Shown: in pieces, positions 7,053 through 19,181 of the stretch | Position numbering within the stretch: the stretch's first letter is position 1 | Layout of the letters: each line of letters begins with the position of its first letter | Source of the DNA: Enterobacter sp. JBIWA008 | Lineage (GTDB): Bacteria; Pseudomonadota; Gammaproteobacteria; Enterobacterales; Enterobacteriaceae | Direction: 5' to 3' | DNA: 64,000 nucleotides | Assembly (NCBI RefSeq): GCF_019968765.1 | Contig: NZ_CP074149.1 | Coordinates: 1,302,001-1,366,000 of the forward strand | The notes under the pieces: generated by a model | The model's database searches: none | What the model saw: the letters and a program-made list of their open reading frames with translations, nothing else | Told to the model about the DNA's origin: nothing | Translations under genes and position numbers: made by a program

Positions 7053-8141
7053 TTAACGGCTGAAGGATTCCACCTTCTCAAACGCGGCGCGCAGAACGTC
7101 AGGCGTTAACGTAATGGGTAAATAATGAATCGACTCCACCGGACGCAGGGTGTGGGCAATCACCTTATCCAGCTCGTCACGGTTGTTGATATCGACGTCC
7201 AGCTCGCGAAGCGTGGTCGGCAGGTTAAAACGCCGGTACGCCGTCACCAGCTGCGCCAGCACGTCGTCCTGGCCGAGCAGCGCGCTCTGCACCAGAATGC
7301 CGTAGGCCACCTTGGTGCCGTGCAGGTACTTCTCCGTCTGCGGCAGCATGGTCAAACCGTTGTGCACCGCATGCGCTGCCGCCACGCGGGTGTAGCGCTC
7401 GCCCAGACCGCCAACCATACCGCCACCGGCGACGATCGCGTCCACCACGTCCCGGAACGCCTGCGTCTGTTCGCCGCGCTGCTGGTCGGCCAGCGCTTCC
7501 TCGCTGCGTTCCAGCAGCACGTCGCGGATAGCCAGCGCGCCGTTGATGCCCAGCCGCACGGTCAGCGGCAGGTTTTCCGGCTCAGGTGCTAATACAACGG
7601 CTTCGTACCACTTCGCCAGCGTATCGCCGATACCCGCCAGCAGGTATTCCGCCGGGGCGTTGAGCACGATCTGCGGCTCCACCAGCACCAGGAAGTTGGC
7701 GTCGTCGAAGATCTCAAAATGCAGCGCCTGGCCGGCATCGTTGTACCAGACGGAAAGCGGGGTCCACGCCGCGCAGGTAGCGGCAATGGTGGGAATGCCG
7801 ACAAACGGCACCCCTAAGCGGCGCGCCACGGCCTTGACGGTATCTAACACCGCGCCGCCGCCGACGCCAATCACCACGCTGGCGTCGCTGCCGGATTCAT
7901 TCACCAGATGGGTGACGTCGCGCTCGCTGCAGTGGCCTTTAAACAGCAGGCGTTTCGCCCCCGGCGCGTTAAAGCTCTCCGGCAGGAAAGGGCGCGCGCC
8001 TTCGATAGCGCGCTCGCCGTAGATCCACACCGCGCGGGAAAGCTGTTCCGGGGTAAAGAAGTTATCCAGCCGCGCAAGGCTTCCGGAATGAGAGAAGTAG
8101 TTCGCCGGGCCAGGCACGACGCGGATATCGGTGTTGCTCAT
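7053..8141 (-). CDS. hcxA: Hydroxycarboxylate dehydrogenase A (YbdH)
   Basis: Iron-containing/glycerol-dehydrogenase-type enzyme of 362 residues, the length of E. coli HcxA (YbdH). E. coli HcxA reduces 2-oxo acids such as 2-oxobutyrate and 2-oxoglutarate with NADPH. GVGGGAVLDTVKAVA is the nucleotide-binding region (about residue 91). The metal ligands of the family are visible as Asp in GIGDTLAKW, His in AAAHAVHNG and His in YLHGTKVA. It is divergent from the ABC transporter across a MetJ-like operator. In E. coli it is paired with the mtnE orthologue ybdL, so a role on methionine-derived 2-oxo acids is a reasonable inference. Confidence 0.92.
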   Translation of the reverse strand: MSNTDIRVVPGPANYFSHSGSLARLDNFFTPEQLSRAVWIYGERAIEGARPFLPESFNAPGAKRLLFKGHCSERDVTHLVNESGSDASVVIGVGGGAVLDTVKAVARRLGVPFVGIPTIAATCAAWTPLSVWYNDAGQALHFEIFDDANFLVLVEPQIVLNAPAEYLLAGIGDTLAKWYEAVVLAPEPENLPLTVRLGINGALAIRDVLLERSEEALADQQRGEQTQAFRDVVDAIVAGGGMVGGLGERYTRVAAAHAVHNGLTMLPQTEKYLHGTKVAYGILVQSALLGQDDVLAQLVTAYRRFNLPTTLRELDVDINNRDELDKVIAHTLRPVESIHYLPITLTPDVLRAAFEKVESFSR

Positions 8142-8176: not shown

Positions 8177-8200
8177 TTATGTCTGGACATCTGGATGGCT
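8177..8200. promoter_or_regulatory. MetJ-like operator, hcxA/ABC transporter
   Basis: Three tandem 8-mers TTATGTCT-GGACATCT-GGATGGCT match the MetJ box AGACGTCT in 5, 6 and 5 of 8 positions. They lie in the 159-base divergent promoter region between hcxA and the ABC ATPase gene. MetJ binds two or more such adjacent boxes with S-adenosylmethionine as corepressor. This is the weakest of the three sites in the island, but its phase and place are right. Confidence 0.6.
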
Positions 8201-8300
8201 AATAATATTTCGCTTTAACTTATGCCTTTTCCGTCGTTGTCAGTCAACCGGAGCTGTGAAAAATTCGATAAATCAGAAGAGTAATGAAGGATTTACGCGG

Positions 8301-9803
8301 ATGGTTTCCAGTCGCCTTGAGATGCGCGGTATCAGCCTGGCCTTTTCCGGCTTTCAGGCGCTGTCGCGCGTGAATTTCACCTTAACCGGCGGGTCCGTAC
8401 ATGCGCTGACCGGTGCCAACGGCGCGGGAAAATCGACGCTGATGGCGGTGCTGTGCGGGACGCACGACCACTATGAGGGCGAAATTTGCATCAACAACCA
8501 GCCGGTGAGCATCCGTGAGCCGCTCGATGCCAAACGGCTGGGCATCCACCTCGTACAGCAGGAAGTGGACGTGGCGCTGATCCCGGGGTTAAGCATCGCC
8601 GAGAACATCATGCTCGACCAGCTGGCGCTGCCGGGGCATCGCTTCAACTGGCGCGCCATCCGCCAGCAGGCGAGACAGGCGCTGGCGCAGCTCGATATTT
8701 CTCTCGACGTTCGCCGTTCCATCGACAGCTGTTCGCTGGCCGAAAAGCAGCAGATTTTGCTGGCACGCGCCTTGTCCCACCACTGCCGTTTTTTGATTCT
8801 TGATGAGCCCACCGCGCCGCTGGATGCGCACGAGAGCGAGCGTCTGTTTGCGGTGGTGAGACGTTTAAAGCAGCAGGGCATCGGCGTGGTGTTTATCTCC
8901 CACCGCATTCACGAGCTGAAGGCTATCTGCGACACCCTGACGGTGCTTCGCGACGGCAAGCTGATCGAGTCCGGACCGATGGCCGATCTTAGCGGCGAAG
9001 CGATCGTCGAGAAGATGCTCGGCCACGTGCTGAGCGATATCTATCCGCCCGCGCGACCGCCGCACGGCGACGAGACGCTGCTGCGGGTGGAAGGTCTGCA
9101 TGACGACGCGCTGCTAAAAGATATCTCCCTGCACCTGCGCAAAGGCGAAATTCTCGGGATTGCCGGGCTGGCGGGGGCGGGGAAAACCGAACTCTGCAAG
9201 GCGCTGTTTGGCGCCACCAAAAGCCGCGTCGCGCGCGGTGAGCTGAATCATCAATCCTGGCAGCCTCGCGATCCGGCCGACTCCGTGCTGCGCGGGCTGG
9301 CGCTGGTGCCGGAGGAGCGGCGCAAGGAGGGCATTTTTATCGACGAGCCGGTGAGCATGAACCTTGCCGTGTGCGCCGATAACAGCTTTTCACGCTGGAG
9401 CCTGTTTGGCCATCGTCAGGCGTGGCGCTGGGCGGAAGAGGTGATTGCCCGCGTCGGCGTGCGCGCGCGTGGGCCGGGGCAGGTGCTGCGCCGCTTATCT
9501 GGCGGCAACCAGCAGAAGGTCGCCATCGGTAAATGGCTGCGCAATGACGCCAGCGTGCTGATATTCGACGAGCCGACCAAAGGCGTGGACGTGAAGGCCA
9601 AAACCGACCTGTTCCAGCTGATTGACGGCCTGGCGCGCGAGGGCAAAGGGGTGATTTACGCCTCGGGCGAATTTGCCGAACTGGTGGGACTGTGCGACCG
9701 CATCTGCGTCCTGTGGGACGGGCGCATCGTGGCGGAAATCGCCGGGGCAGAGGCCCGGGAAGAGACACTACTTTACTATTCAACCGGAGGAACGGCGTCG
9801 TGA
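8301..9803 (+). CDS. Ribose-type ABC importer, tandem ATPase subunit (putative methylthioribose)
   Basis: RbsA/MglA-type ATPase of 500 residues with two fused nucleotide-binding domains. Domain 1 has Walker A GANGAGKST (about residue 34), Walker B LILDEPTAPLD and a degenerate signature (SLAEKQQ in place of LSGGQ). Domain 2 has a shorter GLAGAGKTE P-loop, an intact LSGGNQQKVAIGKW signature and LIFDEPTKGVD. One degenerate site is normal in this family. The ATG at 8301 has AAGGA ten bases upstream; a longer in-frame opening from 7908 runs antisense through hcxA. First gene of a four-gene unit behind a MetJ-like operator. The substrate is inferred from context: MTR rather than ribose. Confidence 0.85.
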   Translation: MVSSRLEMRGISLAFSGFQALSRVNFTLTGGSVHALTGANGAGKSTLMAVLCGTHDHYEGEICINNQPVSIREPLDAKRLGIHLVQQEVDVALIPGLSIAENIMLDQLALPGHRFNWRAIRQQARQALAQLDISLDVRRSIDSCSLAEKQQILLARALSHHCRFLILDEPTAPLDAHESERLFAVVRRLKQQGIGVVFISHRIHELKAICDTLTVLRDGKLIESGPMADLSGEAIVEKMLGHVLSDIYPPARPPHGDETLLRVEGLHDDALLKDISLHLRKGEILGIAGLAGAGKTELCKALFGATKSRVARGELNHQSWQPRDPADSVLRGLALVPEERRKEGIFIDEPVSMNLAVCADNSFSRWSLFGHRQAWRWAEEVIARVGVRARGPGQVLRRLSGGNQQKVAIGKWLRNDASVLIFDEPTKGVDVKAKTDLFQLIDGLAREGKGVIYASGEFAELVGLCDRICVLWDGRIVAEIAGAEAREETLLYYSTGGTAS

Positions 9804-10795
9804 GCAAGGCCCTTTCAGTGAACGCGGCGGCGTCTGGCCGTCAGCAGATTTTCGATTTTCTCTACAGGTGGGGCATGCTGTTGACCGTCGTCGCGCTGGT
9901 GGCCGTCTTTGGCCTGGCGTCGGACAGCTTCCTCGATCCGAACAACATCATCAATATTCTGCGCTCGATCGCCATCGTGACGGTGATTGCCATTGGCGTG
10001 TCGATATCGTTGACCATCGGTGGGTTCGATCTCTCTGTCGGATCGACCGCCTCGCTGGCGAACGCGCTGGTGATTTCCCTTTTCGTCTGGCACGGCTTTG
10101 GCACCACCGAGTCGATTCTGATCACCCTCGCGCTCTGCACGCTGGTGGGGCTGTTTAACGCCTTTCTGATCGTCATCCTGCGCATTCCGGACATGCTCGC
10201 GACGCTTGCCAGCCTGTTTGTTATCCAGGGCGTGGCGATGACCTACAGCTACGGCGGGTCGATTACCGAGAACATGGTGCTGCCGAGCGGCGACATGGCG
10301 GAAGGGACCATTCCGGCGGCGTTCAGCCTGCTGGGGCAGGTGCCGACCATCGTTATTGTCATGCTGGTGGTGACCGTGCTGGCGCAGCTTGGCCTGTCGC
10401 TCACAACGCATGGCCGACGCATGTACGCCATTGGCGGTAACCCCGAGGCTGCGCGTCTCTCCGGCATTCGCACCACGCGCTACAAGGTGGCGGCCTACGT
10501 GATTGCCTCCCTGCTGGCGGGCCTGGGCGGGATTTTGCTGGCTTCGCGCATCGGTTCGTCGCAGGTGAATGCGGGCGGCGGATACCTGATGGATGCGGTG
10601 GCGGCGGCGTGGATTGGCTTCTCGCTGGCCGGGTCCGGCAAACCGAATGCGCTGGGAACCCTGGTCGGGGCGGTCATTCTCGGCGTGCTGTCGAACGGGC
10701 TGGTGATGCTCTCGGTGCCGTACTACGCCATGGACATTATAAAAGGGCTGGTGCTCGCGGTGGCGCTGGCGATTACCTACATACAAAAACGCTGA
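9800..10795 (+). CDS. Ribose-type ABC importer, permease
   Basis: 331-residue inner-membrane permease of the RbsC family (CUT2 class) with about ten hydrophobic segments. The cytoplasmic loop that contacts the ATPase carries GGNPEAARLSGI, the usual motif of this class. It starts at a GTG (9800) that overlaps the ATPase stop by four bases (GTGA) and has GGAGG nine bases upstream. In-frame codons before the GTG lie inside the ATPase gene. Coupled to the preceding gene and followed 19 bases later by the binding-protein gene. Homology does not decide the sugar; neighbours point to a methylthio-pentose. Confidence 0.85.
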   Translation: MSKALSVNAAASGRQQIFDFLYRWGMLLTVVALVAVFGLASDSFLDPNNIINILRSIAIVTVIAIGVSISLTIGGFDLSVGSTASLANALVISLFVWHGFGTTESILITLALCTLVGLFNAFLIVILRIPDMLATLASLFVIQGVAMTYSYGGSITENMVLPSGDMAEGTIPAAFSLLGQVPTIVIVMLVVTVLAQLGLSLTTHGRRMYAIGGNPEAARLSGIRTTRYKVAAYVIASLLAGLGGILLASRIGSSQVNAGGGYLMDAVAAAWIGFSLAGSGKPNALGTLVGAVILGVLSNGLVMLSVPYYAMDIIKGLVLAVALAITYIQKR

Positions 10796-10814
10796 CAACA
10801 CAACGGGATAAAAA

Positions 10815-11879
10815 ATGAAAAAGATTGCACTCTCTTTGGTGGCACTTGGGTTGCTCACTGCTCTGCCAGGCTTCGCGGCTACGCCCGCGCCGCTTCCGGC
10901 TGCCATTGCGAACCATGACGGCCCGATCCGCATCGCGGTGATCCGTAACCTTGGCTCAGACGACAACACCACGCAGTTTATTGCGGGGGCAATTCAGGAA
11001 GGGAAAAAGCTCGGCTTTAAGGTCAGCACCTTTTTAAGCAACGGGGATGACGCGAAATTCCAGGACTTCGTGAACCAGGCGATCAGCCAGAAGTATGACG
11101 GGATTATCCTCTCTCAGGGGCGCGATCCGTACTCCACCGCGCTGGTGAAGAAAGCGGTGGATGCCGGGATTAAAGTCGCCGTCTTTGATACCGCCGTTAA
11201 CGGCGAGATCCCGGGCGTGACCGTCACCCAGCAGGACGATGCCTCCCTGACGAATCTCTCCTTCGGCCAGCTGGCGAAAGATTTCAACGGCAAGGCCAAT
11301 ATCGTCAAGCTGTGGGTGGCGGGTTTCCCGCCGATGGAGCGTCGTCAGGCAGCCTATAAAGTGCTGCAAAAGCAGTATCCGGACATCAAAGAGCTGGAGT
11401 CCATCGGCGCCGTATCCTCTGACGTGCAGGGTGATACCGCCAACAAGGTAGGTGCGATCCTGGCGAAATACCCGAAAGGCAAAATCGACGCCATCTGGGG
11501 CACCTGGGACGCCTTTAGCCAGGGCGCGTATAAGGCGCTGAAGGAGAACGGTCGCACCGAGATCAAGCTCTACAGCATCGACATTTCCAACCAGGATCTG
11601 CAGCTGATGCGCGAACCGGGCAGCTCATGGAAGGTGAGCGTGGCGGTGGATCCGAAGCTGATTGGCGCGACCAACGTGCGTCTGGTGGCGAACAAGATTG
11701 CCGGGGAAGCGACGCCGGCGACCTACGATTTCAAAGCGGCCGCCATTCCGCAGGCGCTGCTGACCGCCCAGCCGGGCCCGGTGAACGTCGCGTCGCTGGG
11801 GAAAATTATTCCGGGCTGGGGCCAGACGGAAGATTTTATCGCGCCGTGGTTTGCGACGCTGGAAGCGAAAAATAAATGA
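10815..11879 (+). CDS. Ribose-type ABC importer, periplasmic binding protein
   Basis: 354 residues with a signal peptide (MKKIALSLVALGLLTALPGFA, cleavage near A-T-P about residue 22) and a periplasmic-binding-protein type 1 fold as in RbsB/LsrB: RIAVIRNLGSDD at the start of the N-lobe, DGIILSQGRDP, VAVFDTAV, and IDAIWGTWDAFSQG in the C-lobe. It would capture the substrate and deliver it to the permease. Aromatic residues in the expected cleft (Trp and Phe around IWGTWDAF) could stack on a sugar or adenine ring. Its TGA overlaps the ATG of the LVIVD gene, so that gene is translated as part of the importer operon. Confidence 0.85.
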   Translation: MKKIALSLVALGLLTALPGFAATPAPLPAAIANHDGPIRIAVIRNLGSDDNTTQFIAGAIQEGKKLGFKVSTFLSNGDDAKFQDFVNQAISQKYDGIILSQGRDPYSTALVKKAVDAGIKVAVFDTAVNGEIPGVTVTQQDDASLTNLSFGQLAKDFNGKANIVKLWVAGFPPMERRQAAYKVLQKQYPDIKELESIGAVSSDVQGDTANKVGAILAKYPKGKIDAIWGTWDAFSQGAYKALKENGRTEIKLYSIDISNQDLQLMREPGSSWKVSVAVDPKLIGATNVRLVANKIAGEATPATYDFKAAAIPQALLTAQPGPVNVASLGKIIPGWGQTEDFIAPWFATLEAKNK

Positions 11880-13117
11880 GCGTGCTCCCTACGCCCGAAT
11901 ACAGCCGCAATATGCGGCTGATTGGCCATAGCGACCAGGGCGGTCGCCCGGACGGCGTGCAGCTGATGGTGCATCGCGGTTTCGCCTATATCGGCCATAT
12001 GGTGTCGCAGGGCTTTTCGATTGTCGACGTGCGCGACCCGAAAAACCCGAAAGCGGCGGGCTACGTGCCCGCGCCGCCCGGCACCTGGAACGTGCATCTG
12101 CAGGCGCATGACGACCTGCTGCTGGTGATTAACGCCCGGGATCTGTTTGCCGATGCCCGCTTTGCCGACGAGAAGATCTACTACACCCGCCAGGTGGGGG
12201 AGACCGTCAGCGACGTGCAGGACAAAGGCTGGAGCGCCGGGCTGCGCGTCTTTGATATCTCCACGCCGGACAGGCCGCGCGAAATCGGCTTTCTGTCGCT
12301 GAGCGGCATCGGCATCCACCGCATCTGGTACGTCGGCGGCCGCTGGGCCTACGTGTCGGCGCTGATCGACGGCTTTACCGACTACATTTTCCTGACCATC
12401 GATCTGGCCGATCCGCGTAAACCTGAAGTGGCGGGGCGCTGGTGGCTGCCGGGGATGAACCAGGCCGAAGGGGAGAAGCCGAACTGGCCGGAAGGGAAAC
12501 GCTACGCGCTGCACCACGCGATTATCGCCGGCGACACCGCGTACGGCAGCTGGCGCGACGGCGGCCTGACGCTGCTGGACGTGAAGGATCGTACCCGGCC
12601 GACGCTGATTAGCCATCGCAACTGGAGCCCGCCCTTTGGCGGCGGAACGCACACCGCGCTGCCGCTGCCGGACCGCTCCCTGCTGGTGGTGCTGGACGAA
12701 GCGGTGCTCGACAACCAGCAAGACGGCGAGAAGCTGATCTGGCTGTTTGATATCCGCGAGCCGGCGAACCCGGTGAGCATCTCCACCTTCCCGCAGCCGG
12801 ATGAAACCGACTACGTGGCGAAAGGAGCGCATTTCGGCCCGCACAACCTGCACGAGAACCGCCCGGGGAGCTTCGTCAGCTCAACGCTGATTTTTGCGAC
12901 GTATCAGAACGCGGGCGTGCGCGCGTATGACATCTCTAATCCGTATCGGCCGGTGGAAACCGGCGCGCTGGTGCCCGCCGCGCCGGAGAGAATGATGGAC
13001 ACGCGGCCGAATCGCCCGCAGGTGATCCAGTCGTGCGACGTCTTTGTGGACGCGCAGGGGATTATTTACAGCACGGACTATAACGGTGGGCTGTCGGTGA
13101 TTGAGTATTTGGGGTAG
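11876..13117 (+). CDS. LVIVD-repeat beta-propeller protein of the importer operon
   Basis: 413 residues with repeated blade motifs of the LVIVD family: FSIVDVRDPKNPKAAG, LRVFDISTPDRPREIG, FLTIDLADPRKPEVAG, LTLLDVKDRTRPTLI, WLFDIREPANPVSI and VRAYDISNPYRPVE. No signal peptide or membrane segment is visible, so it is probably cytoplasmic. Several His-rich turns recur (GIHRIW, LHHAI, GTHTALP, HFGPHNLHE), which could line a metal or substrate site at the propeller centre. The start overlaps the binding-protein stop (ATGA). The biochemical role is unknown; context suggests it acts on, or regulates, the imported methylthio-sugar. It could also be only structural. Confidence 0.8.
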   Translation: MSVLPTPEYSRNMRLIGHSDQGGRPDGVQLMVHRGFAYIGHMVSQGFSIVDVRDPKNPKAAGYVPAPPGTWNVHLQAHDDLLLVINARDLFADARFADEKIYYTRQVGETVSDVQDKGWSAGLRVFDISTPDRPREIGFLSLSGIGIHRIWYVGGRWAYVSALIDGFTDYIFLTIDLADPRKPEVAGRWWLPGMNQAEGEKPNWPEGKRYALHHAIIAGDTAYGSWRDGGLTLLDVKDRTRPTLISHRNWSPPFGGGTHTALPLPDRSLLVVLDEAVLDNQQDGEKLIWLFDIREPANPVSISTFPQPDETDYVAKGAHFGPHNLHENRPGSFVSSTLIFATYQNAGVRAYDISNPYRPVETGALVPAAPERMMDTRPNRPQVIQSCDVFVDAQGIIYSTDYNGGLSVIEYLG

Positions 13118-13171: not shown

Positions 13172-14371
13172 TCAGCTGTACTGCCGCACCCTTGCCACCA
13201 GATCTTCCGCGCTGTCGATGCGGTCGGCAATGACAATCAGCGCCTTGCCGAGCGTAATGGCGTGGCGCAGGCATTCGTGGCGCATCGCCTCGTCCTGGAT
13301 GGTGTCGATATCCGCCACGTGGGAAAGCCCGACGCTGCGGCGAATGAGCTCGGTGCCGCAGAAGCCGATGGCGTCATGCCAGACCTTTTTCAGGAACGCG
13401 GAGGCATAGCCCGGTGCGCCGAGCGCGGCGTCGCGCGTTTTCTCGTTTGCCAGCGCCTGGAAGCGTTCCGCGAAGGTGTTCCACAGCTCCTGAATATCGG
13501 TCAGACGCTGCTCGCGCGCGGCGGCGGCATCGCGAATGCCCAGGTGCCCCGGCAGGCCGCAGAAGTTCAGCAGCAGGTTGCCGATGGCGGTGCCGACGTC
13601 AAAGCCAATCGGGCCAAAGTAGCCGAATTCGGCGTCGATGGCCTTCAGGCTACCGTCGGCCACAAAAATCGACCCGCTGTGAATATCGCCGTGCAGGAGC
13701 GCTTCGGCGTGCGAGAAGAAGCGGTGCTTCAGGGAAGCCACGGCAATTTTAAGCTGAGCGTCGTCGCGCAGGGCCGCGACGTCATTTTCCAGCTCTGCCG
13801 GGTAGCTGTTGCGTTCGTGGATCTGGTACGGATCGTTGAAGAACAGATCTTCGGTGATCTCGCACATCTCAGGGTTGATGAATTTTGCCACCTGCGCTTT
13901 TTTCTCGTGCGGGTGCAGGAAGAAATCGCTGGTGTGGAACAGCGCGTGCGCGAGGTATTCGCCCAGCTGACGCGCCGCCTGCGGGTAATAATTGTTTTTA
14001 ATCAGCTCGCCGCGCCAGATGCGATGGCTGGAGAGATCTTCCATCACCATCACCGCCAGGTCCGGGTCGAAGTGGTGGATTTTCACGGTGTGCTGCGGGC
14101 TGTGCTGGTAGTGCTCGACCAGCGTTTGCGCCTCAAGACGGGCGCGGTCCAGCGTCAGCGGCCAGGACTCGCCGACGCAGCGCACGTAGGGCAGCGCCTG
14201 CTTAACGACGATGCGGCTCACGCCCGCGCTGTCGAAAATTTTAAAGACCAGATTAAGGTTGCCGTCGCCCACCTCCTGCGCCTCTACCAGCGATGAAGGA
14301 TCGTCAAGGCCGCCAAACTGCCTGGCATACTCCACGGCTTCCTGAGCGGTAAAGGTACGGTATTGCGACAT
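13172..14371 (-). CDS. mtnK: Methylthioribose kinase MtnK
   Basis: 399 residues, the length of the Klebsiella enzyme. It phosphorylates 5-methylthioribose at C1 with ATP to give methylthioribose-1-phosphate, the entry step for MTR into methionine salvage (cytoplasm). It has a protein-kinase-like fold: a nucleotide-binding N-lobe with [11 protein letters not shown], the catalytic-loop motif [11 protein letters not shown] with its Asp, and the metal-binding [14 protein letters not shown]. Divergent from mtnA across a strong MetJ operator. E. coli K-12 lacks this gene and excretes MTR, so its presence next to an uncharacterised sugar importer is meaningful. Confidence 0.95.
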
Positions 14372-14399: not shown

Positions 14400-14431
14400 A
14401 GACATGTAGACGTCTATACATCTGGATTTCA
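14400..14431. promoter_or_regulatory. MetJ operator, mtnK/mtnA
   Basis: Adjacent 8-mers AGACATGT-AGACGTCT-ATACATCT-GGATTTCA. The second is a perfect MetJ box and its neighbours match AGACGTCT in 5-6 positions. It sits in the 104-base divergent promoter region, so methionine sufficiency should repress both mtnK and mtnA. The strongest of the three MetJ-like sites with that at 17938. Confidence 0.85.
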
Positions 14432-14475: not shown

Positions 14476-15492
14476 ATGCAGACATTACAGACGACCAGCC
14501 TGCGGGTGGCGGATAATCAGCTCTTTATTCTCGACCAGCAGGCGCTTCCGCAGGAGAAACGCTGGCTGGACGCCTCGACCGTAGAGGCGCTGGTGGGTCA
14601 CATTCATGCCCTGCGGGTGCGCGGCGCGCCGCTGATTGGTCTTTCTGCAAGCCTGCTCCTGGCGCTGCTGGCGGAAAACGGTAAAAGCCGCGACGAGCTG
14701 GCGACGGCGCTGGAAACCCTGCGCGCCTCCCGCCCGACGGCGGTGAACCTGATGAACAATCTCGACCGCATGAAGATTGCGCTGTGGCAGGAAGAGTATG
14801 TTCCGGCGCTCGTGGCCGAAGCGCTGCGCCTGATTGACGAAGACAAACGGCTCTGCGACGCGATTGCGAAAGCCGGTAGCGCGCTGGTTAAGCCCGGCAG
14901 CCGTCTGCTGACCCACTGCAACACCGGCGGGCTGGCAACGGCGGGCGTCGGCACCGCGCTCGGCGTCATTGCCCGCGCGCATCTGGACGGCAACGTCAGC
15001 AGCGTCTGGGTGGATGAAACCCGTCCGCTGCTGCAGGGTGGCAGATTGACCGCGTGGGAGCTTGGCGAGCTGGGCGTGCCGTACAAGCTGATTACCGACT
15101 CCATGGCCGCCAGCCTGATGGCGAAAGGTCAGGTAGACGCCGTGTGGGTAGGCGCAGATCGTATTGCCGCCAACGGCGACGTGGCGAACAAGATTGGCAC
15201 CTATTCCCTGGCGGTGCTGGCGAAATTCCACGGCATTCCGTTCTACGTGGCCGCCCCGCAAACGACCCTCGATCCGGACTGCCCGAACGGTGACGCGATC
15301 CCGATTGAGCAGCGTGCTTCCAGCGAGGTGACGGGCGTCGCCGGAAGCTTTGGTGCGGTGCAGTGGGCGCCGGAAAACGCACAGGTCTACAACCCGGCGT
15401 TTGACGTTACGCCAGCCTCGTTGATTAGCGGCTGGGTGCTGGATACGGGCGTGGTCACACCGCAAGAGGTGGCGGAAGGGAAATTCGCCTGA
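14476..15492 (+). CDS. mtnA: Methylthioribose-1-phosphate isomerase MtnA
   Basis: 338 residues of the eIF2B-alpha-like isomerase family. It converts methylthioribose-1-phosphate (aldose) to methylthioribulose-1-phosphate (ketose), the second step of salvage after MtnK. Catalytic Cys148 is in [10 protein letters not shown] and Asp228 in [10 protein letters not shown], matching the Cys/Asp pair of the B. subtilis enzyme. RVRGAPLIG near residue 47 binds the phosphate. It starts at ATG 14476 behind the MetJ operator. The SRPBCC gene follows 42 bases downstream on the same strand. Confidence 0.95.
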
Positions 15493-15534: not shown

Positions 15535-16005
15535 GTGACGCTCGATCCTGAAACTGACTTAAAACTGGAGCGCGTGGTGGATGCACCGCGCGACCTTCTG
15601 TGGCTCTGCTGGACCACGCCGGAACACATCAAAAACTTCTTCATTCCTGCTCCCCATAAGGTGACCGAATGTGACCTCGACCTGCGCGTGGGTGGGCGGT
15701 TCAACACCGTGTTTGAGGTGGACGGGCAGCGGATGGATAACCGGGGCGTGTTTCTTGAAATCGATCCCGGCAAAAAGCTGGTCTTTACCGACGGCTATAC
15801 CGAAGGCTGGAAGCCGGCCGAGAAGCCGTTTATGACGGCGATCCTGCTGCTGGAAGATGTGGGTGAGGGCAAGACCCGCTACACGGCGATTGCGCGTCAT
15901 CCGACGAAGGAAATCCGCGAGCAGCATGAACAGATGGGCTTCCACGAAGGGTGGGGGATTGTGCTGGATCAGCTGGTGGGGTATGTGAAGAGGCTTAACG
16001 CGTAG
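15535..16005 (+). CDS. SRPBCC (AHSA1-like) domain protein
   Basis: 156-residue single-domain protein of the START/Bet v1-like SRPBCC superfamily, AHSA1 branch. It begins LKLERVVDAPRDLLWLCWTTPEHIKNFF and contains DLRVGGRFNTVF, PGKKLVFTDGY and a C-terminal helix QMGFHEGWGIVLDQLVGY, which together form a hydrophobic cavity. The start is GTG 15535 with GAGAGGA seven bases upstream. No enzyme function can be assigned. It is 42 bases after mtnA and convergent with mtnD, so it may share the MetJ-controlled mtnA transcript. It may bind a hydrophobic metabolite, or be an unrelated passenger. Confidence 0.82.
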   Translation: MTLDPETDLKLERVVDAPRDLLWLCWTTPEHIKNFFIPAPHKVTECDLDLRVGGRFNTVFEVDGQRMDNRGVFLEIDPGKKLVFTDGYTEGWKPAEKPFMTAILLLEDVGEGKTRYTAIARHPTKEIREQHEQMGFHEGWGIVLDQLVGYVKRLNA

Positions 16006-16058: not shown

Positions 16059-16601
16059 TCATGCCAGCCTTGGATACGCATCCGCGATCGCATCCCCTGT
16101 AAACTGGGCAACCCAGCCTTCAGGGTTATCGAAAATACGAATGGCGGTGAAGTTCGGCTCTGAGCCCATATCAAACCAGTGCGGCGTGCCTGCGGGAACG
16201 GAAATCAGGTCGTTTTTCTCGCACAGCACCTGATACACCTCATCGCCAATGTGCAGACAGAACAGCCCCGCGCCTTCCACGAAGAAGCGCACTTCGTCTT
16301 CGCCGTGGGTGTGTTCGTTCAGGAACTTCGCGCGCAGCGCCTCTTTCTGCGGGTTGTCGGCGCGCAGGCTGATTACGTCCCAGCTCTGATAGCCTTTCTC
16401 CGCCACCAGCTTGTCGATGGCATGCTGATACGCCGCAATCACGGCTTCGGGCGCGGGATCGTGTCCTAAATCGCGATCCGCAGCCCAGCGTTCAAACCGC
16501 ACGCCTTTAGCGTTGAGCTGCTGGGCGATCTCCGCGGCGTCGGTGCTGCGCCACTGATGCTGGCTGGCGTCTTTATCGGAATAAATGGTCAATGCGCTCA
16601 T
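16059..16601 (-). CDS. mtnD: Acireductone dioxygenase MtnD
   Basis: 180-residue cupin enzyme that oxidises the acireductone made by MtnC. With Fe2+ it yields formate and 2-oxo-4-methylthiobutanoate (on-pathway); with Ni2+ the Klebsiella enzyme gives methylthiopropionate, formate and CO (off-pathway). All four metal ligands are visible: His97, His99 and Glu103 in EHTHGEDE and His141 in GTPHWFD (96, 98, 102, 140 in Klebsiella numbering). The start overlaps the mtnC stop by four bases; mtnB-mtnC-mtnD form one minus-strand operon. Confidence 0.96.
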
Positions 16602-17287
16602 GAAGGGATCTGCTCCGGATTAATCTCGTCAAACTGGTGGACCTGATGGTGATGGCTTGCGCCGTCATCATCGCCGCGAATCAGCTGCAGGGTGCGAAAA
16701 CCTGCCCGTTCAGCCGCGTCCAGCTCCTGATGAATATCGGACAGGAACAGGATCTGCGACGGGGCGATGCCCGTTTGCGCCGCAATGTTGTGATACGACT
16801 GCACCTCGCGCTTGGCGCCGATGTGGGTATCAAAATAGCCGCTGAACAGATGAGTAATATCACCTTCGTCGCTGTAGCCAAATAACAGTTTCTGCGCGGC
16901 GACGGAGCCAGAGGAATAAACATAGAGATCAATCCCTTGCGCTTTCCACTTTTCCAGCGCAGGCAGTACGTCCGGGTATAGGTGGCCGGTAAAGTCGCCG
17001 TTCACGTAGCCGTCATGCCAGATGATCCCCTGCAGTGCTTTGAGCGCCGTGGATTTGCGGTCTTCATCCATAAAGGCAAACAGGGCGTCGACAAGCTCGC
17101 TGACGCTGGCGTGCGGGTGACCGATTTCATCACGCAGGTTGTCCAGAATGGATTTGACCGGCTCGGCGTACTGCTGCGCGGTCACGAAGGCCGCCAGCCG
17201 CTCACGCGCGTAGGGGAACAAAACGTCATGGACAAAACGGATATCGCTGGTGGTTCCTTCAATATCCGTCACAATCGCGCGAATCAT
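16598..17287 (-). CDS. mtnC: Enolase-phosphatase E1 MtnC
   Basis: 229-residue HAD-superfamily enzyme, the length of the Klebsiella orthologue. It enolises 2,3-diketo-5-methylthiopentyl-1-phosphate and then removes the phosphate to give acireductone. HAD motif I is DIEGTTSD with nucleophile Asp8 and Glu10; [12 protein letters not shown] is motif II and the late [12 protein letters not shown] is motif IV. The start at 17287 ([11 protein letters not shown]) overlaps mtnB by four bases. An in-frame ATG at 17320 lies inside mtnB and would add a tail absent from the family. Confidence 0.95.
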
Positions 17288-17898
17288 ACTCTCTCCAGTT
17301 GTCGTAAACGCATTTCGCATTCAAATAAGAATTCTAATCCTTCCAGATGACGGCGGGCCTCGGCCACATCGCGTCCCCAGCAGGTTAAGCCATGACCGCG
17401 CAGAAGAAAACCATAATTAAGCGGGCGTTCCCGTGCGTAATGGGCGATTCGGGAGGCGAGGACGTCGATATCCTGGTCGTTATCAAAGACCGGGATAGCC
17501 ACCGTATCCAGGTGCGTGGTCTGTCCGGTGAGGGATTTTTGCATTTCAAAGCCGCTGATGTTGAGTTCGGCTTCTTTCACCAGACGCGACAGCACCGTGG
17601 CGTTGACGGTATGAACGTGCAGGACGGCGTTGGCCTCCGGAAACAGACGATAGATTAGTGTGTGAAGCCCCGTTTCGGCTGATGGCTTACGACCAGACGG
17701 CGCGCGGTTGGTGGCGATTTCAACCTGCAGAAAATCCTCCGTCGTCAGGCTGCCTTTGTCTTTGCCGGATTCGCTGAGCCAGCAGAGGCGTTCGTCCTGG
17801 CGCACCGACATGTTGCCGCCGGTGGCGGGGGCCCAGCCTTTGGCGCCAATCCAGCGGCAGGCGTCGACCAGATGTGTGAGTTGCAGGTTGTCTGTCAT
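17284..17898 (-). CDS. mtnB: Methylthioribulose-1-phosphate dehydratase MtnB
   Basis: 204-residue class II aldolase-like zinc enzyme. It dehydrates methylthioribulose-1-phosphate to 2,3-diketo-5-methylthiopentyl-1-phosphate, the third salvage step. ATGGNMSVR binds the phosphate (about residue 25), zinc ligands are His94 and His96 in [10 protein letters not shown] and a further His in [10 protein letters not shown]. First gene of the mtnBCD operon, with four-base overlaps to the next genes. The promoter faces the MetJ boxes at 17930-17961 shared with mtnE. Confidence 0.95.
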
Positions 17899-17929: not shown

Positions 17930-17961
17930 TATGGTTTAGACGTCTAAGCGTCTTGATTGCC
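17930..17961. promoter_or_regulatory. MetJ operator, mtnBCD/mtnE
   Basis: Perfect box AGACGTCT at 17938-17945, immediately followed by AAGCGTCT (6 of 8) and flanked by weaker 8-mers in the same phase. The site occupies the 122-base divergent promoter region between mtnB and mtnE. With the sites at 8177 and 14400 it places every transcript of the salvage island behind a MetJ-type operator. Confidence 0.82.
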
Positions 17962-18020: not shown

Positions 18021-19181
18021 ATGAGCAATAACGCATTGATTCCGCAGAGTAAACTTCCCAATCTCGGGACCACCATCTTTACGCAGATGAGCGCTCTGGC
18101 GCAGCAGCACAACGCCATTAACCTTTCTCAGGGCTTTCCGGATTTCGACGGCCCGACCTATCTGCAGGAGCGTCTGGCGTACCACGTGGCGCAGGGGGCG
18201 AATCAGTATGCGCCGATGACGGGCGTGCAGGCGCTGCGGGAAGCCATTGCGGATAAAACGGCGGAGCTTTACGGGCATAAGCCCGATGCGAACAGCGACA
18301 TTACGGTGACGGCAGGGGCGACCGAAGCGCTGTATGCGGCCATCACCGCGCTGGTGCGTACGGGCGATGAAGTTATCTGCTTTGACCCAAGCTACGACAG
18401 CTATGCGCCTGCGGTTGAACTCTCCGGCGGCGTGGTGAAGCGCGTGGCGCTTCAGCCGCCGCATTTTCGTCCTGACTGGCAGGCGTTTGCTGCGCTGCTG
18501 AGCGACAAAACCCGCCTGGTGATCCTGAATACCCCGCACAATCCGTCGGCGACGGTGTGGCAAAAGGCCGATTTCGCCGCGCTGTGGCAGGCGATTGCGG
18601 AACGCGAAATTTACGTCCTGAGCGATGAGGTCTACGAGCACATCTGCTTTGCACAAGAAGGACACGCCAGCGTGCTGGCCCATCAGCAGCTTCGCGAGCG
18701 CGCTATCGCCGTCTCGTCATTCGGTAAGACTTACCATATGACCGGCTGGAAAGTGGGCTACTGCGTCGCACCGGCGGCCATCAGCGCCGAGCTTCGCAAG
18801 GTGCACCAGTACCTGACCTTTGCCGTGAACACGCCGGCTCAGCTGGCGCTGGCGGATATGCTGCGCGCTGAACCAGGCCATTACCGCGAGCTACCGCACT
18901 TCTATCGTGAGCGTCGGGATCTGTTTGTGGCGGCGCTGAGTAAAAGCCGTCTGGAAATTTTGCCCTCAGAAGGGACTTACTTCCTGCTCGCGGACTACAG
19001 CGCGATTTCCGATCTCGACGACGTTAGCTTTTGCCAGTGGCTGACAAAAGAGGTGGGCGTGGCCGCCATTCCGCTGTCGGTGTTCTGCGCCGATCCCTTC
19101 CCGCATAAGCTGATCCGTCTTTGCTTTGCGAAGCAGGAATCGACGCTGCTGGCGGCAGCAGATCGACTGAACACGCTCTGA
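18021..19181 (+). CDS. mtnE: Methionine aminotransferase MtnE (YbdL)
   Basis: 386-residue class I/II PLP-dependent aminotransferase, orthologue of E. coli YbdL. It transaminates 2-oxo-4-methylthiobutanoate to methionine, the last step of salvage, using amino donors such as glutamine or aromatic amino acids. The PLP lysine is in SSFGKTYHMTGWKVGY, NTPHNPSATV binds the cofactor, and LSDEVYEHI is the conserved Asp/Tyr motif. It has its own start behind the MetJ operator and a perfect-stem terminator at 19213. In E. coli it lies next to ybdH; here the rest of the mtn island has been placed between the two. Confidence 0.95.
   Translation: MSNNALIPQSKLPNLGTTIFTQMSALAQQHNAINLSQGFPDFDGPTYLQERLAYHVAQGANQYAPMTGVQALREAIADKTAELYGHKPDANSDITVTAGATEALYAAITALVRTGDEVICFDPSYDSYAPAVELSGGVVKRVALQPPHFRPDWQAFAALLSDKTRLVILNTPHNPSATVWQKADFAALWQAIAEREIYVLSDEVYEHICFAQEGHASVLAHQQLRERAIAVSSFGKTYHMTGWKVGYCVAPAAISAELRKVHQYLTFAVNTPAQLALADMLRAEPGHYRELPHFYRERRDLFVAALSKSRLEILPSEGTYFLLADYSAISDLDDVSFCQWLTKEVGVAAIPLSVFCADPFPHKLIRLCFAKQESTLLAAADRLNTL

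Follow-up and report, generated by a model that had tools for sequence, protein, structure and literature searches.

What does the four-gene unit mtrA-mtrC-mtrB-mtrY, which lies between hcxA and mtnK in Enterobacter sp. JBIWA008, bring into the cell, and how does its fourth gene take part? We studied a 64-kb window of this genome (NZ_CP074149.1), meaning the whole stretch of DNA that was analyzed, and all coordinates are window positions. The gene names mtrA, mtrC, mtrB and mtrY are those of Augustus and Spicer 2011 (PMC3228920). We concluded that mtrACB is very probably a MetJ-repressed, CUT2-type ATP-binding cassette (ABC) importer of 5-methylthioribose (MTR) that feeds the kinase MtnK. This conclusion draws on gene order, gene overlaps, operator-like sites, family relationships and co-occurrence, all of which were observed directly. 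The unit is made up as follows:

8301..9803, plus strand: mtrA, a CUT2-type tandem ATPase that matches models of sugar ATPases such as AraG, XylG and RbsA, each below its cut-off
9800..10795, plus strand: mtrC, a permease (PF02653) with a GTG start, overlapping mtrA by 4 bases
10815..11879, plus strand: mtrB, a binding protein (PF13407) with a signal-like N-terminus by eye, starting 19 bp past the end of mtrC
11876..13117, plus strand: mtrY, an LVIVD repeat protein, by eye without a signal sequence, overlapping mtrB by 4 bases

The reading frames of mtrA, mtrC, mtrB and mtrY contain no internal stops. The original prediction of one unit between hcxA and mtnK, in which genes overlap by four bases at 9800 and at 11876, proved correct in both coordinates and overlaps. 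A tandem ATPase, a PF02653 permease and a PF13407 binding protein in a single unit make up a CUT2-type (ribose-type) ABC sugar importer. The order mtrA-mtrC-mtrB(-mtrY) beside ybdH/hcxA and mtnK, with MetJ-like boxes, is moreover that of MtrACB as defined in 2011.

Co-occurrence was examined in a sample of 149 genomes from the family of the window's host. Matches to MtrB at 1e-3 or better were found in 72/149 genomes. Forty-one of these genomes were counted as mtrB carriers, namely 39 with intact orthologues (≥75% identity) and two with broken copies (G028 and G113); the other 31 matches (≤34% identity) were taken for other sugar binding proteins and excluded. Results showed that mtnK was present in 41/41 mtrB genomes, as was mtrC, the latter being broken in G028 and G113. 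The proposed co-occurrence of MtrB orthologues with mtnK was thus borne out, and the orthologues did not occur mostly away from mtn genes.

Kinship with solved proteins pointed to MTR as the ligand. Among the solved proteins listed, MtrB was best matched by 5ulb from Yersinia (82% identical) and second best by 4ry8, Thermotoga lettingae TLET_1677 (31% identity), which shares the fold of MtrB but comes from another phylum, and which is titled a 5-methylthioribose transporter binding protein. These two were the closest to MtrB in both sequence and fold among those listed, and we infer that MtrB itself binds MTR. Together with the presence of mtnK in all 41 mtrB genomes, this kinship supported MTR import feeding MtnK, as originally proposed, as the best reading.

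Family resemblance would instead suggest an importer of ribose or autoinducer-2 (AI-2), both of which the original prediction had listed as alternatives, and distant matches of MtrB to the NCBIfam RbsB and LsrB models were found. However, these scored 22.7 bits against a cut-off of 337 for RbsB and 26.9 bits against a cut-off of 384 for LsrB. Ribose and AI-2 are further disfavored because the same genome encodes its own dedicated RbsB and LsrB, the ribose and AI-2 binding proteins, elsewhere. The MetJ-like sites and the co-occurrence with mtnK also speak against these two substrates, which we rejected as most improbable. A second candidate is 5'-methylthioadenosine (MTA), a related by-product that would also feed the salvage pathway after being cleaved inside the cell by MtnN. 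Import of MTA seems very unlikely, since the name of the relative 4ry8 refers to MTR and not MTA, and since the titles of solved relatives, where a ligand was legible (many are incomplete), name a sugar or inositol.

A third candidate overlaps with MTR import. In RbsB, ribose is contacted by R, N and Q. In a pocket comparison, MtrB departed from the ribose type at T126, W231 and V278, changes that could suit other 5-substituted furanoses, and 5-deoxyribose arises by a parallel by-product route from S-adenosylmethionine. The importer might accordingly serve 5-substituted pentoses more broadly, taking MTR plus 5-deoxyribose or other 5-substituted riboses. We regarded this breadth as possible but doubtful, because the mtr unit sits among methionine salvage genes and bears MetJ-like sites, because mtnK accompanies mtrB in 41/41 genomes, and because 4ry8 is named for MTR. 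Import of MTR remained the preferred reading.

The regulatory sites were scored against the MetJ-like box consensus AGACGTCT, taken twice (x2, 16 positions) or three times (x3, 24 positions). With ≤3 mismatches, AGACGTCT x2 had 3 matches in the 64 kb (14400, 14408 and 17938) versus 0.08 expected. The sites of the salvage genes were:

8177..8200: triple MetJ-like box between the divergent hcxA and mtrA, 16/24 to AGACGTCT x3
14400..14423: MetJ-like boxes between mtnK and mtnA, 20/24
17930..17953: MetJ-like boxes between mtnB and mtnE, 17/24, with a two-box match at 17938-17953

When the dinucleotides of the 159-bp stretch between mtrA and hcxA were shuffled, 3/3000 shuffles matched the triple-box score at 8177-8200. 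In the same shuffles, the two-box score (11/16) was matched by 61/3000 and the four-box score by 12/3000. The mtrA triple site ranked fifth in the window, and the four better ones were at the two other salvage promoters. Tandem MetJ-like boxes had been claimed for all three promoters; they are strong at 14400 and 17930, whereas the mtrA site, though present (16/24, 3/3000 shuffles), is weaker. A sigma-70-like site at 8237-8264 is a pattern match only.

We also scored upstream regions in a set of 80 named loci, the top 80 of 526 confirmed stretches when these are ordered by similarity to MtrY; because of this ranking, close relatives dominate the set. A triple site of at least 15/24 lay within 350 bp upstream in 53 of the 55 named loci with mtrA (exceptions L081 and L143), scores that were counted without a shuffle control and in loci that, being close kin, are not independent cases. 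Among the 22 loci in which mtrB was the first gene match (L088 owing to a short contig), 4 scored ≥17 and 18 scored ≤14. MetJ repression of mtrA and mtrB was measured by Augustus and Spicer 2011 (PMC3228920).

Several points weigh against MTR import under MetJ control. The MetJ-like site before mtrA is weak. Fourteen of the 55 genomes with an mtnK-like match were without mtrB; they include three distant matches (39-42% identity), two copies that are broken or in pieces (G051, G054) and one with a single stop (G104). Internal MTR can therefore be salvaged without the importer, which fits MTR import but is no proof of it. As listed, the title of 4ry8 is incomplete, with no bound ligand legible, and the title of 5ulb names no ligand. 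A literature search, in which large result sets were only sampled, turned up neither binding nor uptake nor growth experiments on enterobacterial MtrB. Lastly, metboxes were counted at 19/41 mtrA genes in the 2011 study, and the Klebsiella MetJ ratio was mild for mtrA (0.42) versus ≤0.12 for mtrB and others (PMC3228920).

If MTR is the substrate, MtrB would capture it in the periplasm, and MtrC and MtrA would carry it over the inner membrane with ATP being spent. MtnK would then phosphorylate MTR in the cytoplasm, and MtnA-B-C-D-E would regenerate methionine from the phosphorylated product. The MtrB of the window is predicted to bind MTR and the mtr unit to be needed for its uptake. In that case Enterobacter and Klebsiella could live on a sulfur sugar discarded by E. 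coli, an instance of cross-feeding already imagined in 2011 (PMC3228920).

The importer, its likely substrate, its control by MetJ and the puzzle of mtrY are already known since 2011. Augustus and Spicer named mtrACB and mtrY, presented the former as a probable MTR transporter that was not functionally characterized, assigned mtrY to COG5276 and called its function unknown (PMC3228920). Calling the importer uncharacterized, as the original prediction did, is thus right in one respect, for that paper itself says so of its function, and wrong in that the system had been named, predicted and measured for MetJ repression. Their mtrACB-mtrY likewise lies beside ybdH and mtnK, with ybdH sharing the boxes, and E. 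cloacae ATCC 13047 is among the genomes in a figure legend; first identification, in Bacillus cereus, is credited there to Rodionov et al. 2004 (PMC3228920). The importer is the same in both studies; what the present analysis adds is the counts, the comparison of pockets, the invariant MtrY residues and the pattern of mtrY and hcxA on a tree.

The name mtrA is also borne by YfnA of Bacillus subtilis, presumably an amino-acid-permease-type carrier. MTR influx by this MtrA/YfnA is reported as experimentally authenticated (PMC5743806); it is not the mtrACB ABC unit. Leyn et al. 2014 list MtnXYZ for methylthioribose uptake in the MetJ regulon (PMC4239095). These genes carry other names and are probably the same as the mtr genes, and no transport experiment appears in the available part of that paper. 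In Pectobacterium versatile, mtrB is annotated as a putative methylthioribose ABC transporter binding protein (PMC7843439); it is reported only as changed in a phoP mutant, and the available part of the report contains no transport test.

The genes that surround the mtr unit are hcxA on its left and, rightward of mtrY, mtnK, mtnA, mtnD, mtnC, mtnB and mtnE in that order:

7053..8141, minus strand: hcxA (ybdH), an Fe-ADH-type dehydrogenase (PRK10586, 706 bits, cut-off 429), left of mtrA and divergent from it across the MetJ-like boxes
13172..14371, minus strand: mtnK, methylthioribose kinase (TIGR01767, 499 bits, cut-off 275), right of mtrY and convergent with it
14476..15492, plus strand: mtnA, MTR-1-phosphate isomerase (TIGR00512)
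16059..16601, minus strand: mtnD, acireductone dioxygenase, named by position, with no NCBIfam model past 1e-60
16598..17287, minus strand: mtnC, acireductone synthase (TIGR01691)
17284..17898, minus strand: mtnB, methylthioribulose-1-phosphate dehydratase (PRK09220, TIGR03328)
18021..19181, plus strand: mtnE, methionine aminotransferase (PRK09082)

A small SRPBCC-like gene, named by eye, lies at 15535-16005 between mtnA and mtnD. Of the 80 named loci, 12 had it, and some of the loci stop short of that place.

Gene presence in the named loci was determined from tblastn matches at 1e-20 that reached a minimum identity of 45 to 55%, several loci being cut by contig ends. Within the fetched flank, mtrB was found in 77 of the 80 loci, hcxA in 69, mtrC in 56, mtrA in 55 and mtnK in 48. 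The twelve best-ranked loci, all of them Enterobacter, had MtrY at 96 to 98% identity. Fifteen loci (Winslowiella, Erwinia, Pantoea, Rahnella and Serratia) had hcxA-mtrB-mtrY with neither mtrA nor mtrC nearby. Only mtrB-mtrY was present in six others (four Tatumella, one Pantoea and one Rouxiella). The group mtrB-mtrY(-hcxA) may be a cassette that moves together. The 21 mtrB-mtrY loci without mtrA or mtrC nearby are L107, L115-L118, L121, L125-L127, L129, L130, L132-L138 and L140-L142, and other neighbors at such loci were mixed (12 inspected). Loci L123 and L128 had hcxA and mtrY, with mtrB absent from the fetched stretch, and L144 had mtrY alone.

We then considered mtrY in relation to hcxA, which was counted at 1e-80 or better. 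In the family sample, mtrY was found in 30 genomes, each with mtrB, and was broken in G028 and G113. It lay ≤300 bases from mtrB in 29/30, the two genes being on different contigs in G024. In G028 and G113 the genes mtrB, mtrC and mtrY were all broken; of these two genomes, G028 also had a broken mtnK, that of G113 being open. Of the 41 mtrB genomes, 30 had both mtrY and hcxA and 11 had neither (Fisher p 3e-10, uncorrected for kinship), hcxA being partial in G028 and having one stop in G071. Overall, hcxA was found in 36/149 genomes, and the six beyond the 30 were without mtrB. In 10/30 genomes, hcxA and mtrY were on different contigs or >6 kb apart; hcxA was ≤2 kb from mtrC in six of these and near neither mtrC nor mtrY in the other four (G098, G112, G134, G141). 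Joint deletion of neighbors therefore cannot explain every case.

A LeuS tree was used for 55 chosen genomes (40 with mtrB, 6 with hcxA only, 9 with mtnK only), with the other 93 of 149 left out and G028 outside the tree because a LeuS match was absent. On this tree mtrY required 12 changes. In nine independent, well-supported pairs, hcxA was concordant in a mean of 6.7, opposite in 0 and unchanged in 2.3 (median p 0.016). Inside the mtrB genomes, four supported pairs were concordant in 4/4 (p 0.125), too few for significance. Against the link, hcxA was not found in 11/80 named loci, a count that covers the fetched stretch only and not whole genomes. The joint occurrence suggests a MtrY-HcxA side branch.

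MtrY itself looks more like an enzyme than a transport part. It scored 27 bits against PF08309 (LVIVD repeat; cut-off 20.2). Seven histidines (H41, H74, H148, H213, H214, H259, H323) were invariant in 41 MtrY relatives, down to ~30% identity, as were the acidic residues E200, D274, E275, E327 and D388. The MtrY profile matched a haloalkylphosphorus hydrolase (5hrm/5ioj), an enzyme with a binuclear metal site, at 2e-10 over the whole sequence and at 0.006 for the best single blade; the two have LVIVD-type blades in common but align only over single blades. From the invariant histidines and acidic residues, and from the exact match of mtrY and hcxA in the 41 mtrB genomes with 10/30 non-neighboring, we tentatively propose that MtrY could be a cytoplasmic beta-propeller enzyme with a metal site that acts with HcxA on the imported methylthio-sugar or its product, its metal, fold and reaction all being predicted. 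A side branch of this kind, which we propose with the same reserve, would take methionine salvage further than the steps given in the cited papers. MtrY has the wider reach: an LVIVD protein can here be linked with a likely metabolite, with a known regulator and with a dehydrogenase as partner, so that its reaction is directly testable.

Methanethiol oxidase (SBP56) was rejected as the identity of MtrY, the score being 16.7 bits against a cut-off of 34 with one blade matching. SBP56 was matched under cut-off by 40/41 members of the MtrY family, and hhalign of MtrY with 6 SBP56 proteins gave a probability of 8.4% over 30 columns. A fusion of MtrY to a TonB-receptor plug (P0004) was also rejected as a clue: a truncated receptor-like protein runs into mtrY, most likely through rearrangement. 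Distant MtrY relatives adjoin a TctA-like transporter, a gentisate-dioxygenase-like cupin or a flavin adenine dinucleotide (FAD) oxidoreductase, all named by eye. In loci L053 and L054, the MtrY-like protein adjoins a cupin that resembles gentisate-1,2-dioxygenase by eye, a setting which suggests that LVIVD proteins of this branch act in the service of catabolic enzymes.
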